A DNA stretch of 64,000 nt. Origin: Ahniella affigens. Its GTDB lineage: Bacteria; Pseudomonadota; Gammaproteobacteria; Xanthomonadales; Ahniellaceae. The first letter of the stretch is position 1; every line of letters begins with the position of its first letter. Below are positions 3,346 through 16,239 of this stretch, piece by piece. Below the pieces are notes generated by a model. That model searched no databases. It worked only from the letters and a program-made list of their open reading frames with translations, and was not told where the DNA came from. Position numbers and translations under genes: made by a program. Where the stretch lies: assembly GCF_003015185.1 (NCBI RefSeq), contig NZ_CP027860.1, positions 5,053,001-5,117,000 of the forward strand, given 5' to 3'.

Positions 3346-3703
3346 GAATCTTGTGCAAGACGATCTCAGCCGCACGTTTTCCGCCCTCGCCGACCCAACA
3401 CGCCGCGCCATCCTGGCCCGCCTGGCCGAAGGGGAGGCGAATGTCTCGGAACTGGCGGCGCCATTTCTGGCGTCAATGAGCCTGCCGGCTGTGACCAAGC
3501 ATCTGAAAGTGCTGGAGCATGCTGGCCTGATCAGCAAAGGGCGGCAGGCGCAATGGCGCCCCTGCCGGCTCAATGGCGAACCGTTGCGGGACGCCGTCGA
3601 CTGGATGGCGCAATACCGCGAGGCCTGGGAGGCGCAGCTCGATCGTCTCGGTGCCTATCTGAAAACCAAAACCCAAGGAGACCGTCGTGGCAACAACGAC
3701 TAA
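3344..3703 (+). CDS. ArsR-family HTH transcriptional regulator
   Basis: The 119-residue protein is a winged-helix regulator of the ArsR type: LADPTRRAILARLAEG near residue 16, then a recognition helix LPAVTKHLKVLEHAGLISK (residues 47-65). No paired metal-binding cysteines are visible, so it is probably not a metal sensor. The start is GTG 3344; GTG 3353 is an alternative. The end overlaps the SRPBCC gene by 17 bases. ArsR/SRPBCC gene pairs are common in proteobacteria, with the regulator controlling its partner. Confidence 0.88.
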   Translation: MNLVQDDLSRTFSALADPTRRAILARLAEGEANVSELAAPFLASMSLPAVTKHLKVLEHAGLISKGRQAQWRPCRLNGEPLRDAVDWMAQYREAWEAQLDRLGAYLKTKTQGDRRGNND

Positions 3704-4631
3704 GAGCAGTGTGCTGTCCCTGAGCCGTACTTATGACGCCCCGTTGCAAGCAGTCTGGGAGGCGTGGACGATTCCTGAGGAAGTGGCGCAATGGTGGGGC
3801 CCACGTGGGTTCACGCTGACGACGCACGACCGCGATTTCCGGACCGGCGGCCATTGGCACTACACCATGCACGGCCCGGATGGCACTGACTACGAGAACA
3901 CCACGCAGTATTTGGAAGTCGTGCCGATGCAGCGCATGGTTTACGACCATGGCGGGCATCGCGATCGGCCGCCACTGTTTCGCGTCCACGCGCTGTTCAC
4001 CGAGCGCGATGGCAAGACGCAACTGGACATGAGCATGACGTTTGCGACGCCCGAGATCGCACAGGAAATGCGTGGCTTCATCAAGAAAGCCGGTGGCGAG
4101 GGCACCTGGGATCGGCTGGCTGAGCACCTGGGCAAGCGCGTGGCGGGCAAGGAGTACTTCATCATCACCCGCAGCTTTGCCGCGAGCATTGAGCAGGTTT
4201 ATCAAATGTGGGCCGACCCCGAGCAACTGGCGCAGTGGCTACCACCGACTGGCGCGACGATGCGCTTTTTGCGTCCAGCGGGCGATATCGGCACGACCGG
4301 GTTCTACGAGATGACACTGCCTGGACAGCCGCCGATGTACGGGCGGATCACGTGGCTCGTGCGCGAGCCACCCAACCGCCTCGCCTACACCCAACAATTC
4401 TGCGATGCCAACGAACGCGTGATTCGACCACCGTTCTTCGAACACTGGCCCACAACCATGTTGGCCGAGATTGATCTGGTCGCCGAAGGTCCGGATCAGA
4501 CGCGCGTAAGGGTACGCTGGGACGCGCAGGATGCAAACGCCGAAGACTTGGCCGAGTTCATCAAGCAACGTGCCGGCATGACCCTTGGTTGGACGGGCAG
4601 CTTTGACAAGTTGGAAGCGCTGCTGACTTGA
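3687..4631 (+). CDS. Tandem SRPBCC (AHSA1-like) domain protein
   Basis: This 314-residue cytosolic protein starts at GTG 3687 with an AAGGAG site six bases upstream, inside the end of the ArsR gene. It carries two AHSA1-type SRPBCC domains in tandem, residues about 8-145 and 155-312. Each opens with the same pattern (LSRTYDAPLQAVWEAWT..., ITRSFAASIEQVYQMWA...) and then a QWW or QWL segment. The usual family unit is one domain of about 150 residues, so this is a duplication or fusion. SRPBCC folds bind hydrophobic ligands; the ligand is unknown. Confidence 0.88.
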   Translation: MATTTKSSVLSLSRTYDAPLQAVWEAWTIPEEVAQWWGPRGFTLTTHDRDFRTGGHWHYTMHGPDGTDYENTTQYLEVVPMQRMVYDHGGHRDRPPLFRVHALFTERDGKTQLDMSMTFATPEIAQEMRGFIKKAGGEGTWDRLAEHLGKRVAGKEYFIITRSFAASIEQVYQMWADPEQLAQWLPPTGATMRFLRPAGDIGTTGFYEMTLPGQPPMYGRITWLVREPPNRLAYTQQFCDANERVIRPPFFEHWPTTMLAEIDLVAEGPDQTRVRVRWDAQDANAEDLAEFIKQRAGMTLGWTGSFDKLEALLT

Positions 4632-9504: not shown

Positions 9505-9684
9505 GCGGCGGCCCTCAGCGTGGCGGTGATCCGCCATTGAAGCGCGTCACACGCGCGCTGTCCAATCTCCGCCTCGGGACCCAAGGCGCCGGTGCGAGCG
9601 GCCCCCGAGTTGGTGGCCGCAGCGCCCTTCGGGTCAACGCCGCGTGCTAGCCTTCTGGTTCGATCACTTTTGCGGGAAACAGTC

Positions 9685-11400
9685 ATGCTTGCGATCGGTA
9701 TTCGTTCGGTCCCATTTGGCGCCTTCAGGCGCTTCAGTGCCTACCCATTGCTGACGCTCACCGTCCTTCTTGCGGCCTGCGCCAGCCAACCGAAACAGAC
9801 CGCCACATTGGCCATGGCGAGCGAAACGCCAAGTGAGCCAATCGTTTTTCTGGAAGACGCCGCTGCGTCGCAAGCGGCTTCCGCATGTGGCATCAGCGTC
9901 GCCGCTGGCACCGGTGCGCCCGCACCGCCCGAGGCAACAGCCAGCGCCGCAGCGGATCCGGTGTTCGGGCTCGGAAAATGGATCGCGGGGTTGATCCTCT
10001 CGCAAGCCAAATCGGTGGCGACGCGCGAGCTCGGTTGGGATCAGGAATACAACCGCTTTCTGGCGCTATCCAGTCAGCTCAACGAGATCAATACGCGCTT
10101 GAATGCGCTCGATGCCCGCATGGATCGTCTGACTGAGTTGCTGGAGACGATTGACCTGCGCCGCGTCAAGTCGGAGTACCACCGCGATTTTGTCCAACCA
10201 GTCTTCATTGGCACGACGGCGTTGAATCAGCTGGCTTGCCGCGAGGCCGCGCTGAATCGCGCGCGCCTGCTCGATCGGGATGTGCAGATGGCGCTCAACC
10301 AGCGCAATATCGCGCTGGATCAGTTCAAGCAAGAGTGTCGCAGCAACAATGATTTCTATAGCATTCCCGCAAGCCTCACCGAGCGACTGAGTTCCTCTGG
10401 CTCCATTCTCGATAGCTACAAGCGTGCCGTGATCCTGCCGAGGCGATTTCTGGTCGAGCAGGACACCATCGAGTACGAAAGTGTGTTCTATCGCTATCAC
10501 CTGACCCAAGTCACCGCGTTGCGGTTGGCCGCAGAATGCAAGATTCGGAATCGCCCAGACAACGCCGATCCCAACGACCCCGGTCAGGCGAACTTCCGAA
10601 AGGCGTTGGCAAAGTCCCTCTACGAAGACATTGACGGTCCGTTCCGCGTCGCGCGAATGGACCAGGTTGAACAATTCCTACCCACGCCCTTGCCCGAGGG
10701 TCTGGTGTTTGACATCCAAAACAATCTGCTGTGGCTCAACCGCCGTGAGTTCGGCGCGCATCCCTACACGAGCCAGCGTTTGTCCAACCGCGCTGTGAAT
10801 GTGCGACTAACTCGTCGCGGACCCAGCGAAACCGGACCATGGCAGTTCCAGCTTGCCCGATTTGGTGATGTCGAGGCGATGGCGGCACTCGGGCAGGCGC
10901 TGCCAACGGTGCGGCGCGGCGACAGCGGTAGCTCGTTATATCCGGCAACACTGAAGCCCTTTTTGGCAGAGATCGGCCTCGGCCAAGTTGCTGCCGCGAT
11001 TCCGGATTCGGGCGACCTGAGTTTTGCGTGGACCGCCGATGCCGGCCGGCCCATTCGGCGCTGCCACACCCTGGATGCGACGGCCTGCAAGAAGTGGTAC
11101 GACCCGCATGAAAGCCTCGGTCGTATCGCGGCCATCGCCCCAGCCAGTGGCTCCAAACTTCGCCCAAATCCGGATGGGGCTTGGTACGCGCCACAGCAAT
11201 GCCGCCCTAACGAGTGTCGCGATTTCCGTTATGCCAAGTCCGGCGTCATCTCGGTGTGCCGTGATCCCAACGTCACCGATTCGCGGACTCGCTGCGTTGC
11301 TGATCGCGTCTTGGGTGAGTGGCAGGCGCCTGGTCTATACACGTCACGTCCGCGGCCAGAGGATCACTTCTTCGCGTTCCGGTGGTCGAACACGGATTGA
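9685..11400 (+). CDS. Large lipoprotein with coiled coil, unknown function
   Basis: The start is ATG 9685, which puts a lipoprotein signal first (LTVLLAACASQ, lipid cysteine at residue 32); an upstream in-frame start would not give a signal peptide. The 571-residue protein has a Gly/Ala-rich hydrophobic segment near 90-115, then a heptad-like helix (LNEINTRLNALDARMDRLTE, residues about 131-150). A C-terminal region from about 350 has LWLNRREFG and several Cys (CHTLDATACKK, CRPNECRDF, CRDPNVTDSRTRC). The C-terminal part vaguely resembles DUF1566-type domains, but I cannot assign it. Confidence 0.65.
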   Translation: MLAIGIRSVPFGAFRRFSAYPLLTLTVLLAACASQPKQTATLAMASETPSEPIVFLEDAAASQAASACGISVAAGTGAPAPPEATASAAADPVFGLGKWIAGLILSQAKSVATRELGWDQEYNRFLALSSQLNEINTRLNALDARMDRLTELLETIDLRRVKSEYHRDFVQPVFIGTTALNQLACREAALNRARLLDRDVQMALNQRNIALDQFKQECRSNNDFYSIPASLTERLSSSGSILDSYKRAVILPRRFLVEQDTIEYESVFYRYHLTQVTALRLAAECKIRNRPDNADPNDPGQANFRKALAKSLYEDIDGPFRVARMDQVEQFLPTPLPEGLVFDIQNNLLWLNRREFGAHPYTSQRLSNRAVNVRLTRRGPSETGPWQFQLARFGDVEAMAALGQALPTVRRGDSGSSLYPATLKPFLAEIGLGQVAAAIPDSGDLSFAWTADAGRPIRRCHTLDATACKKWYDPHESLGRIAAIAPASGSKLRPNPDGAWYAPQQCRPNECRDFRYAKSGVISVCRDPNVTDSRTRCVADRVLGEWQAPGLYTSRPRPEDHFFAFRWSNTD

Positions 11401-11502: not shown

Positions 11503-12723
11503 TTACGGGAACGCTGACTTGAAGTAGCTGATCGCATCGAGCACTTGCGGGGTGATGCGCCGATACGCATTCGGAAACTCGACGCCCGGGCTGCACGTCG
11601 TGCAGCTATGCGTGCTGGCCACGCCGAACACCACCTTCTTGTTGCCGCCGAAAATGTCGGTAAACAGACCCGAGCCAGAATGCCCGCCGCTGGAATCGCA
11701 GTTCACCGTCAGACGGGTGTTCCAATTGTCGCTGTCTTTGCTGCCAAAGCCGCCGATCTCACAGTTGTTGATGTCTTGATAAGCCCAACCTTGCTCGCAG
11801 TTCGCGGGCGCCGCGCTGAGGTCGCAAGCCGGGTAGCCGCGATTGAAGCAACGGCCGTCACCCAGGTCATGATCGGCGCAGAAATCCTGCAAGGCCGCGT
11901 CAGTCATGGCGTAGTAACCGAGCCACCCAGTCGTATTGCCGGGCGACGTGCCGAGTACCATGATGCCGTAGTCGTGCGGCCATGGATTGGTGGGCTCGGT
12001 GCGGAAGGCCTCGGGCGTGAAGTACCAGATGGCGGTGTGTGCACCGTAAGGCTCGCAGCTCGCGTTGGCGCATTCGCCTTCGCGACCAGGCCGGAACCGT
12101 GTGCCGTTGAGTGAGACCCATGACGCATCGTCGCGGTCGTAAAGACAATGTGCGGCGGTCAGCACGATGTTGTGCGCAATCAAGGTGCCCGAGCAACCGG
12201 AGTTCCTGCCGCCACCTAGCTGGCCCTGGGCGCGAAACGGATAGGTCGTGTTGTCAAATCGACGGGTGCGCGTGTCAACACCGTTGCTCAAGCCCTTCTC
12301 GACCACCGACGGCTCAATGACGGGTTTGGCCGTTCCCTCGGACCCCATGTTGGCGCCCTGTTGTTCCAAATAGCGGTGCAACTGGTGCGCCAATTGCTTC
12401 GGCATGTCCACCCGGTATTCGAATCCCGTCTGCAGATTCACCGCACGCCACGCATTTTGATCAACGACGCGATTGCGATCTCCGGCATCGAGACGCTTGC
12501 CCCGACCAGGCATGGCATCGATGTCCGCGACACCGGCCCATGTCCAAACGTCGCTGAGCGGGGCGTGGGCTTTGCCTGTATCCGATATAGCGCGACCCAG
12601 GTCGATTGTCAGATTGGTCCCGAATGCGGGCGCGCGGCTGACGTTCTGGTCCGCCGCCGCGTGCGCCGCGGCGATGCTCATCATGCCGAGCGCGCAAGCG
12701 ACGGCAAACACTTTCTTGTTCAT
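11503..12723 (-). CDS. Secreted trypsin/V8-like serine endopeptidase
   Basis: ATG 12723 follows a strong GGAGG site and opens a signal peptide (MNKKVFAVACALGMMSI...AHA). The 406-residue protein has an N-terminal pro-region to about 165 and then a chymotrypsin-fold domain. The catalytic triad is visible: His192 in LTAAHCLYD, Asp251 in PHDYGIMVLG, Ser349 in GGHSGSGLF. The GGHSGSG form and the DYGIMVL strand are closest to glutamyl endopeptidase (V8) relatives. Several Cys pairs suggest disulfides, in line with export. It ends FKSAFP and lacks the GFE tail seen on other exported proteins here. Confidence 0.85.
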   Translation of the reverse strand: MNKKVFAVACALGMMSIAAAHAAADQNVSRAPAFGTNLTIDLGRAISDTGKAHAPLSDVWTWAGVADIDAMPGRGKRLDAGDRNRVVDQNAWRAVNLQTGFEYRVDMPKQLAHQLHRYLEQQGANMGSEGTAKPVIEPSVVEKGLSNGVDTRTRRFDNTTYPFRAQGQLGGGRNSGCSGTLIAHNIVLTAAHCLYDRDDASWVSLNGTRFRPGREGECANASCEPYGAHTAIWYFTPEAFRTEPTNPWPHDYGIMVLGTSPGNTTGWLGYYAMTDAALQDFCADHDLGDGRCFNRGYPACDLSAAPANCEQGWAYQDINNCEIGGFGSKDSDNWNTRLTVNCDSSGGHSGSGLFTDIFGGNKKVVFGVASTHSCTTCSPGVEFPNAYRRITPQVLDAISYFKSAFP

Positions 12724-12993
12724 GATCTCCTCCAAGTAGGGTATGTAATGGTTCTCAAGCACATCGATGAACGCCGATGGTGAGAGAGCATCCGTATTTC
12801 CGGGCTCACTTGGACATACGCGTTGCCATTAAGACAGAGATCACGTTGGTGGAAATATTTGTGCTGCCGGGTGAAGTTTGCAAGCGCGGGCACGCGGCGT
12901 CGCACACCGAATAGCGTGTGCGACGATTCTTTGTGCAGACATTCAATCAGCGTTGATTGCGAAAGGACGAAGCGTTCGATTTGATCGAGCGTG

Positions 12994-15420
12994 TCATAGT
13001 GCCCCGCAAGCCGACATGTTTTGCGGCGGTGCATACGCGATGCGCTGGCCGTTTGCATCGCGCCAAGGCAGCGGCTCAAACGGTTGAAAGCCGGCAGGCG
13101 GCTCGGTCGGAATGCCCTGCGCGTCGATCGCCTGTTTGACGTAGCCGAGTGACCCGTCGGTCGGTGTGCGCTGCAACCATAACGCGTCGTCGTCGCGCCC
13201 GGGCGCAATGTAGTGGCGCGCGTTGGTCAGCCAGCTGAGCTGGCGAAACTCATCCTGCACGATGCTGCGCGCCTCGCCCTCTGGCAAGTAGTGCAGCAAG
13301 TAGCAACGGGCTACCGTGGCATCGCGCAGAAAACGCGGATCCTGCTTGGTTGCCAACTGGAATAGTTGCGCACAGGCCGTCTCGATATCGGCCCGATCAC
13401 GGGTCATGGCACTGATTCGGCAGTAAGCGCCCAAGCGGTGCAACAGACTGTCGCCGAGACTCGCATAGGCCGAGCGCGCAAGAAACGCGGTGGTGATCGC
13501 GTCTGTCGGCGCCAGCTTGCTCTTGACGCGCGCCGCCAAATCCAAGGCAGCCGGCAACACTTCTGGATAGGTTTGCTCGAATCGCGCCTTCTGACTCGCA
13601 GCCAGAACGATGGCATCCCATTCCGGCCGGAAAATCGGATTGCCCGGTTCACTTTGGATGCTATCGGGCAGTTGCAATAGGTCGGCGACAGCATTGTCGG
13701 GCGCCCGATTCGCAAAGTCCCGACGCGCACTGAGGCAAGGTTCGACGTCGACGTTGCAGAATTTCGCGACGACATAGAATTCCCATTCCTCGCGCCGACG
13801 ACTCATGGCCTGCTCGAACAGTTGTTGCGCGGGCATGACCTTGGGCGGGGTCGCACCATTGATCTGTTCGTTGACCACATACAGATCGAATTGTTGGACG
13901 ACCGTGGCGTAGCCGCCCGGTGATCGCCTATTCGCGGCCGTGATCAAACCCAGAACGCTGGCATCGGCTGCGAAGGCGTCAACATGGTGCTGCAGCAGCC
14001 GACTGTCTCGATAGTAGACGAATCGATCGTGCAGCCTTTGTAGGCGCTCGTGCTGAAATCCCAGCGCATCTGGTTGCAGCAGCCCTTGCTCGATGCCCGC
14101 GAGGACTCGGTCCTGAATTGCCTTATTCTCGTCGCCGTCGCCTAAGAACATCCAGTCGAACACCGATCGCGGGCACCGGCCCGCGGCCATGCACGGTGAC
14201 ACGGGGACCAGCACGTCGGCATCGTAGTTCAACATCGGTATCGGCAGAATCGCGCTGTCGCTCTCAAGCGCCATGGCGGCGATTTGCCAAGTGGTTTGAT
14301 CCAAAGCCCGCTGCTGGGTCCACATCCAGCCGAAGGTTCCGGCGAGTCCGACGCCCGCGAGCAGCAACGCGCCACTGAGGGATGCCAGCGCAGGCTCTCG
14401 CCGAAGCCAACGCATAGCCCGTTCGGCGATACCCGGTCGACGTGCGCTGATGTCGAGTCCTGCCTGAAAGCGCCGCAGGTCATCCAGCATGACCGCGGCG
14501 GTCTCGTAACGATCTTCCTGCCGCCAAGCCATGGCTTTGGCACAGATCGCAGCAAGATCGGCCGGCATGCCAGCGATGTGCTGCAGCGGTTCGACGTTTC
14601 CGGCCAGCACTCGTTGCATGATGGTACGGGCATCGCCGCTACCATGCGCCGAGCGGCCGCTGACGAGGCGGTACAAGATGGCGCCGAGCGCGTAGACATC
14701 GGTGCTCCGCGACAGGCGAAACTCTTTGATCAGTACTTGCTCTGGCGCCATAAAGCCGGGTGTCCCCGACACTTCTTGGGCGAGCACTTGCCCACGTTCA
14801 TCCATGGGTCGCGCCAGGCCGAAGTCGGCAACCAGTGGTTGACCGTGCTCGTCGATCAGAATGTTGGCCGGTTTCAGGTCGAGATGAAGGAGCCCTAGCC
14901 GATGGGCATAGTCGATGGCCTCAGTGATCGGAATCATCAACTGCAGCGCTTCCTTCGGCGCCAGAGCGCCAAGGCGACAGCGATGGGCGAGTGTTTCACC
15001 GCGCGCCAAGGGCATGCTGAGAAAATCGATACCCGCATGACTGCCGACTTCCAATACGGGCAGAATGTTTGGGTGGTTCAACGTGGCGGCGTGGCGTGCC
15101 TCGGTCAGGAAGCGCTCGCGTGAGCCCGCCAGACTCAGCGCCGTTGGGCCGAGCAACTTCAGGGCCACCTCTCGATTCAGCGACTTCTGCAACGCCCGGT
15201 AAACGAGACCCATGCCGCCCTGGCCGATCAATTCCAACAATTGATAAGCGCCAAAATCAGCCTGCGTCGGATCACTGAGATCCGGCAGGATCATTGGGTC
15301 CCATGTGTCGTCTGATTTTGCCAGGGACAAAATCGACGCGAGTCGGAGGGCGTCAAGTGGGTGCTTGAGGTCTTGCGTGTCCAAGGCCGCGGTCGGGTGG
15401 ATGGACGGATTAGAATTCAT
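12994..15420 (-). CDS. Membrane Ser/Thr protein kinase with periplasmic C-terminal domain
   Basis: The 808-residue protein starts at ATG 15420 behind an AGGA site. A PknB-type kinase domain spans about 57-320: GQGGMG loop (67-72), VALKLL lysine (88), DLKPAN with the catalytic Asp at 181, DFG (199-201), APE (226-228). The residue before the catalytic Asp is Leu (HLD, not HRD), so it is a non-RD type kinase that may not need activation-loop phosphorylation. One membrane helix follows (about 346-366). The remaining 430 residues would be periplasmic; no known sensor fold was recognised. It diverges from the ECF sigma gene at 15574. Confidence 0.88.
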   Translation of the reverse strand: MNSNPSIHPTAALDTQDLKHPLDALRLASILSLAKSDDTWDPMILPDLSDPTQADFGAYQLLELIGQGGMGLVYRALQKSLNREVALKLLGPTALSLAGSRERFLTEARHAATLNHPNILPVLEVGSHAGIDFLSMPLARGETLAHRCRLGALAPKEALQLMIPITEAIDYAHRLGLLHLDLKPANILIDEHGQPLVADFGLARPMDERGQVLAQEVSGTPGFMAPEQVLIKEFRLSRSTDVYALGAILYRLVSGRSAHGSGDARTIMQRVLAGNVEPLQHIAGMPADLAAICAKAMAWRQEDRYETAAVMLDDLRRFQAGLDISARRPGIAERAMRWLRREPALASLSGALLLAGVGLAGTFGWMWTQQRALDQTTWQIAAMALESDSAILPIPMLNYDADVLVPVSPCMAAGRCPRSVFDWMFLGDGDENKAIQDRVLAGIEQGLLQPDALGFQHERLQRLHDRFVYYRDSRLLQHHVDAFAADASVLGLITAANRRSPGGYATVVQQFDLYVVNEQINGATPPKVMPAQQLFEQAMSRRREEWEFYVVAKFCNVDVEPCLSARRDFANRAPDNAVADLLQLPDSIQSEPGNPIFRPEWDAIVLAASQKARFEQTYPEVLPAALDLAARVKSKLAPTDAITTAFLARSAYASLGDSLLHRLGAYCRISAMTRDRADIETACAQLFQLATKQDPRFLRDATVARCYLLHYLPEGEARSIVQDEFRQLSWLTNARHYIAPGRDDDALWLQRTPTDGSLGYVKQAIDAQGIPTEPPAGFQPFEPLPWRDANGQRIAYAPPQNMSACGAL

Positions 15421-15573
15421 GTTGCGATTCCTGAGTGCGACAGCACATTTTCGGTTGCACAGTCTGGATGGTGGCGCCTTGCCTACGGGCCGCCGCATCC
15501 CCTGTATTCAACCTATTACGCCTGACGGTACAAATGTGACAGGATTCGTTGGATTTCTTTACGGGGGCGCCCG
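15421..15573. promoter_or_regulatory. Shared divergent promoter region, kinase/sigma pair
   Basis: These 153 bp separate the starts of the kinase and sigma genes and must hold both promoters. No clear -35/-10 pair or operator was identified. A GGGGG ribosome site lies just before ATG 15574. Confidence 0.4.
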
Positions 15574-16239
15574 ATGCACTTTCCATCCACCCGCTGGAGC
15601 CTCCTGGTTGCTGCTGCCGACCCGGACCAAAGTCGCGTGGCTTGGGAAGCGCTGGCGCGTTCCTATCGCCCAGCGATCGTGGCCTATTTCCGAGCACGTT
15701 TCCGCCCGGAGGTGGCCGAGGATCTCACCCAGCAATTTCTGACGGAGTCGATTGAATCGGCGTGGTGGACACGAGCCGATGCGGGTACCGCCAGCTTTCG
15801 CACCTTTTTGCGAGTGCTACTGCAGCGGTTCGGTGCGCGTCATCATGAGCGCTTCAGCGTGGAACATGATCCGAATTGGCAAGCGGACGATTCCGCCGCC
15901 GAGTCATCGGCGCCTGCGCCTGGGCCAGAGCAGATCTTCGAGTTGCGCTTCGCGCAGATTCTGGTCCACCGTGCAGAGGAACACCTGAAGGCGTCGCTGC
16001 AAGAAGACCCGGCGCAACTCGCGCTGTTGCCCATGCTGTTTGCAGATAGCGGACACGGTGATCTGAAGCAGGTGGCAGAACAACTCAGTCTGACGCCGAA
16101 CACACTTACTCAGCGTCTGAAGCGACTGAGGGTCCGCTTCAAGGCGCAGCTGCGTTCGGAGATCGGGGAGTTGCTGAGCGATCCCGAAAACCTTGATGTC
16201 GAGTTGCAAGGCCTTCTGAGCACGCTTCGACGGGCTTAG
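15574..16239 (+). CDS. ECF-type RNA polymerase sigma factor (kinase-linked type)
   Basis: The 221-residue protein has a sigma-2-like region (about 20-90) with TRWSLL near the start, EDLTQQFL (50-56) and FRTFLRVLL. A sigma-4 helix-turn-helix lies near 163-190 (LKQVAEQLSLTPNTLTQRLK). The TRWSL and EDLTQ motifs are typical of ECF sigmas encoded beside Ser/Thr kinases, for example in planctomycetes. In Xanthomonas and Vibrio, kinase-linked ECF factors (EcfK/PknS, EcfP/PknT) are activated by phosphorylation rather than by an anti-sigma factor. No anti-sigma gene lies nearby. Control by the neighbouring kinase is inference. Confidence 0.82.
   Translation: MHFPSTRWSLLVAAADPDQSRVAWEALARSYRPAIVAYFRARFRPEVAEDLTQQFLTESIESAWWTRADAGTASFRTFLRVLLQRFGARHHERFSVEHDPNWQADDSAAESSAPAPGPEQIFELRFAQILVHRAEEHLKASLQEDPAQLALLPMLFADSGHGDLKQVAEQLSLTPNTLTQRLKRLRVRFKAQLRSEIGELLSDPENLDVELQGLLSTLRRA

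Follow-up and report, generated by a model that had tools for sequence, protein, structure and literature searches.

A membrane Ser/Thr kinase gene and an ECF-like sigma factor gene lie divergently, 153 bp apart, in the 64,000-nt stretch of Ahniella affigens DNA analysed here (contig NZ_CP027860.1; hereafter the window). With moderate confidence, we interpret them as a dedicated one-kinase, one-sigma pair whose sigma belongs to a kinase-linked family that lies outside group ECF43 and retains the acidic residues of region 2.2. What can be read from the sequence is the pairing, the common descent of such pairs, a non-RD catalytic loop in the kinase, the retained polymerase-binding acids and an intergenic element (Table 1). 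The original prediction of a divergent membrane Hanks-type kinase and ECF-like sigma was borne out by the reading frames, the Pkinase match and the start set by orthologues, but its likening of the pair to EcfK and EcfP (ECF43) was not, since the sigma falls outside the ECF43 clade, keeps the acidic residues and has Glu49 in the slot of the phosphorylated Thr. That interpretation was thus half right: the sigma is kinase-linked, yet not of the EcfK/EcfP kind.

Table 1. Features of the kinase-sigma locus (window coordinates).
Feature	Position	Strand	Evidence
Membrane Ser/Thr kinase gene, 808 aa from ATG 15420	12994..15420	-	Frame, Pkinase match, orthologue alignment
Predicted periplasmic helical sensor domain, four invariant Cys	12997..14316	-	Alignment, model
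Predicted transmembrane helix, single	14332..14388	-	Hydropathy
Kinase domain (Pkinase, residues 85-330 of the 834-aa frame)	14509..15246	-	Pfam E=3.4e-39
HLD codons for HRD in catalytic loop (non-RD kinase)	14878..14886	-	Sequence, kinase alignment and tree
Divergent intergenic region, 153 bp	15421..15573	.	Sequence
Conserved element GTCACAT-N12-GCGTA, promoter-like	15517..15540	- (as read)	Three divergent loci
TRWSL-family ECF-like sigma factor gene, 221 aa	15574..16239	+	Frame, TIGR02937, tree
TRWS codons (Thr6-Ser9), family-conserved; candidate docking or phosphorylation segment	15589..15600	+	Alignment
Region 2.2 AEDLTQ codons (Ala48-Gln53), acids kept, Thr52 not conserved	15715..15732	+	Alignment

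We checked the gene starts of both members of the pair. The kinase frame is open to ATG 15498 (12994-15498, minus strand, 834 aa), and orthologue alignment places the start at ATG 15420, which is preceded by AGGAA (Shine-Dalgarno) and gives the 153-bp gap to the sigma gene. The Gly loop, catalytic Lys, Asp, DFG and APE are all present in the alignment, as in Hanks-type (PknB-like) kinases, while the arginine of HRD that marks RD kinases is replaced, the motif reading HLD. Non-RD kinases have lost this arginine; activation-loop phosphorylation is thought to be unneeded in them (EFR departs from this rule), and such kinases can have weak activity or function non-catalytically (PMC8463890). HLD is found in the kinase adjoining the TRWSL sigma (see below) at nearly all Lysobacterales loci. 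HRD is present in kinases beside TRWSL-sigma relatives of other phyla and in those close to the L045 and L050 sigmas; in the window genome, the kinases linked to ECF43 sigmas carry mostly HRD and some HCD. The 18 HLD kinases form one clade (SH-aLRT 98), apart from the ECF43-linked kinases; this and the sigma tree below come from quick searches of sampled genomes, with SH-aLRT support only.

The window sigma matches TIGR02937 weakly (E=8e-7, below the model cut-off) and matches neither PF07638 nor PF04542; its identity as a sigma factor is confirmed by its relatives, the tree and an AF2 model (pLDDT 88) whose top fold neighbours are ECF sigmas. A single-sequence search of genome contigs confirmed no relative, and the relatives were found by an alignment-based search. 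The protein carries TRWSLL at residues 6-11 and AEDLTQQF at residues 48-55; a literature search on the TRWSL motif returned nothing. A tree of 87 sigmas separates the clade of the TRWSL family (support 99) from that of the ECF43 set (97) and places the window sigma outside the latter, and its own subfamily is supported within the TRWSL family (99), although the deep branching order is unsure because of the quick search. The sigmas of the window and of loci L075 and L076 form a supported trio (99). Phylogeny, which had been proposed as a check, sets the sigma in a kinase-linked clade distinct from the canonical anti-sigma-controlled ECFs and outside ECF43. We note that many Lysobacterales loci have two TRWSL sigmas in tandem ahead of the kinase (L043 6742-7464, L044 908-1651, L047 2786-3487, L048 7567-8298, L049 7510-8235 and L051 6218-6910). 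Region-2.2 acids are retained in the leading sigma of the tandem. They are mostly gone from the second, which groups in a clade of its own (100) and may thus be a decoy or a regulatory sigma.

Pfam searches of the genes neighbouring the window pair found no anti-sigma family, as had been noted; an unlinked anti-sigma gene may still exist. A Ser/Thr kinase adjoining the sigma and no anti-sigma gene beside it is also the arrangement of ECF43. Among loci found by the sigma alone in genome contigs, about 25 of 33 have a kinase within ~3 kb, more than expected by chance (neighbour counts depend on contig ends and on the genomes sampled). The adjacency recurs widely in Lysobacterales and at loci of Acidobacteriota, Planctomycetota and Verrucomicrobiota, most commonly with the sigma followed by the kinase on one strand. 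The divergent layout with an HLD kinase occurs only in the window, L075 (the same locus as L118) and L076, which also have the sensor domain and the intergenic element in common; the latter two loci are from metagenome-assembled genomes, the only ones in which the layout and the element recur. Among the loci examined, HLD kinases, the cysteine-containing sensor and the divergent layout were found only in those of Lysobacterales type. The HLD kinases and the window's sigma subfamily each form one clade, apart from the ECF43-linked kinases and the ECF43 sigmas, respectively; the pairing and its common descent are highly probable. The kinase gene is followed, after a 231-bp gap, by the frame of an exported, trypsin-like protease in the same orientation (11503-12762, minus strand). 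It is not kept beside the pairs of relatives and was rejected as a conserved neighbour, which counts against the suggestion that nearby exported proteases are targets. Also nearby is a 602-aa frame (9592-11400, plus strand) resembling an exported lipoprotein (LLAACAS close to its start), with no Pfam match.

About 440 residues of the kinase are predicted to be periplasmic. Kinases across the sigma subfamily have related domains, 17-22% identical to that of the window kinase, and four cysteines are invariant in 14 sequences; a single-sequence search recovered this homology for L075 and L076 alone. The model of the domain is all-helical (mean pLDDT 71), and Foldseek gave no significant match, only weak ones of TPR type (e.g. 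LapB). In five loci, L036 (6452-7621) and the Tahibacter-type L082 (6773-7978), L083 (6951-7979), L084 (874-1971) and L085 (7013-7960), a stand-alone, probably exported homologue of this domain, with no Pfam match, is encoded directly upstream of the sigma.

Between the two genes, 15 columns of a 24-bp block are identical across the three divergent loci, whereas none of 60 shuffles gave more than 10. In minus-strand orientation, the block loosely resembles an ECF promoter, the usual boxes of which are AAC and CGT (PMC8103513). The 14-base form of the element has one zero-mismatch site in the window genome, the intergenic one, and searching that genome with the element yielded no regulon (2-mismatch counts were not above those of a reversed-pattern control). 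A 1-mismatch site (C1:708178) falls inside a 1007-aa open frame, and an exact 12-base site (C1:1525475) falls inside the frame of an ECF43-linked kinase. A second exact element in L075 (3789-3812) resembled a target promoter but belongs to a duplicated remnant of that locus's own sigma-kinase intergenic region (3700-3890), which still includes the starts of both genes and lies ~4 kb from the intact pair.

The window genome also contains 43 PF07638 matches (35 above 90 bits), none of them at the window sigma. A kinase is in the region for 22 of 23 such matches (20 regions read), and in most ECF43-type sequences read, region 2.2 has a Thr as part of an A/P-T-x-L pattern. These sigmas are greatly expanded in this genome (G000:C1, e.g. 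loci L055-L074) and numerous in other genomes of the order; L058 has three kinase genes in one strand direction.

ECF43 is described as having lost the DAED acids, with a phosphorylated Thr taking their place (QTTA or STTA) (PMC13147305, PMC8999054). The window sigma instead reads VAED at residues 47-50, with Asp50 in 17/17 distinct subfamily sigmas and an acidic residue 49 in 16/17. Because the automatic alignment was gapped at region 2.2, the ECF43 Thr was placed by eye on the shared Leu; it falls on Glu49, three residues before Thr52, so with Glu49-Asp50 retained the ECF43 acceptor slot is already a Glu. Residue 52 is T in 7 of the 17, A in 6, L in 2, M in 1 and V in 1. Mycobacterium tuberculosis SigE, which is controlled by an anti-sigma, carries AEDLTQETF, and AEDLTQ is also present in two non-ECF43 sigmas of the window genome (L226 and L242); EDLTQ is thus no sign of kinase control. 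Of the two motifs originally taken as typical of kinase-linked ECFs, then, TRWSL does mark a kinase-linked family and EDLTQ does not. Thr6 is kept in 63/63 acidic-motif members and Ser9 is also conserved, while Ser59 (17/17) and Ser74 (15/17) are conserved in the subfamily only.

In the mechanism we propose, the membrane kinase would sense a periplasmic signal through its cysteine-containing helical domain and control the divergently encoded sigma. The sigma would not need phosphorylation in region 2.2 to bind RNA polymerase, in which case control would act elsewhere; with the known ECF43 switch absent from it, control must work in another way. Phosphorylation, activating or inhibitory, is the most likely form, and Thr6 or Ser9 of TRWS, Ser59 or Ser74 could be the targets, although these conserved residues may instead be structural; kinase docking is the other candidate route. 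We think it somewhat more likely than not that the kinase phosphorylates the sigma directly, and consider region 2.2 a very improbable site. Acting at the shared element, the sigma may contribute to transcription of its own locus, and the pair is probably autoregulated. Outside ECF43, the kinase-linked groups have retained DAED-like acids, and their mode of action may likewise differ (PMC8999054 section 3.4).

The Thr of EDLTQ had been put forward as the acceptor, which would amount to an ECF43-like switch with phosphorylated Thr52 activating the sigma. The kinase adjoins the sigma, and Thr52 is shared by the window sigma and those of its two closest divergent relatives (L075 and L076), but the residue varies in the subfamily and AEDLTQ is shared with sigmas such as SigE, as described above. 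The ECF43 acceptor, moreover, aligns with Glu49 and not with Thr52 (PMC13147305), and we find this switch hardly credible. With the acidic surface of the sigma retained, a serious alternative is that the kinase inhibits or sequesters it: the kinase would act as the anti-sigma, holding a polymerase-competent sigma at the membrane, perhaps through TRWSL, and releasing it on a signal, with catalysis secondary or inhibitory. A sigma that keeps its polymerase-binding acids yet has no anti-sigma neighbour, a non-RD kinase and an N-terminal family mark without an assigned use are all consistent with this, whereas retention of the catalytic Lys, Asp and DFG argues against it; we know of no kinase that acts as an anti-sigma, and we think the arrangement unlikely. 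If true, it would be a second, undescribed route of kinase control, with a kinase in the place of an anti-sigma factor. It also seems improbable that control of the sigma lies mainly in its own transcription while the kinase phosphorylates other targets, adjacency then reflecting co-expression from the shared region. The conserved element and a sigma that looks intrinsically competent would fit such a scheme, but the pairing is kept across large distances, whichever the gene layout, and the clades match; this speaks for a physical partnership.

How phosphorylation controls a sigma factor has been worked out for ECF43 alone, and control of the acid-retaining, kinase-linked groups has been named as an open question (PMC8999054). 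The window locus makes this question directly testable, as it offers a compact two-gene case with named candidate residues, a defined element and ECF43 pairs as controls in the same genome.

Among known systems, M. tuberculosis SigE, AlgU and E. coli sigma-E are the best solved-structure relatives of the window sigma in sequence and fold, and SigE shares AEDLTQ with it; these canonical ECFs are anti-sigma-controlled and lack the TRWSL N-terminus, and the window sigma lies in a separate clade. As in EcfK/PknS of Xanthomonas citri and EcfP/PknT of Vibrio parahaemolyticus (group ECF43), an ECF-type sigma lies beside a membrane Hanks kinase and no anti-sigma gene accompanies it, and the periplasmic region of the window kinase is predicted to be helical, like the TPR region of PknS (PMC13147305). 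ECF43 sigmas, however, have lost the region-2.2 acids and carry the phosphorylated Thr there, and PknS has the canonical catalytic loop of an RD kinase, unlike the window kinase with its HLD. Also kinase-linked are ECF59, ECF61, ECF62, ECF217 and ECF283, so far predicted only, which like the window sigma combine a conserved kinase neighbour and no anti-sigma with retained DAED-like acids (PMC8999054); Planctomycetota loci are among the relatives of the window sigma.
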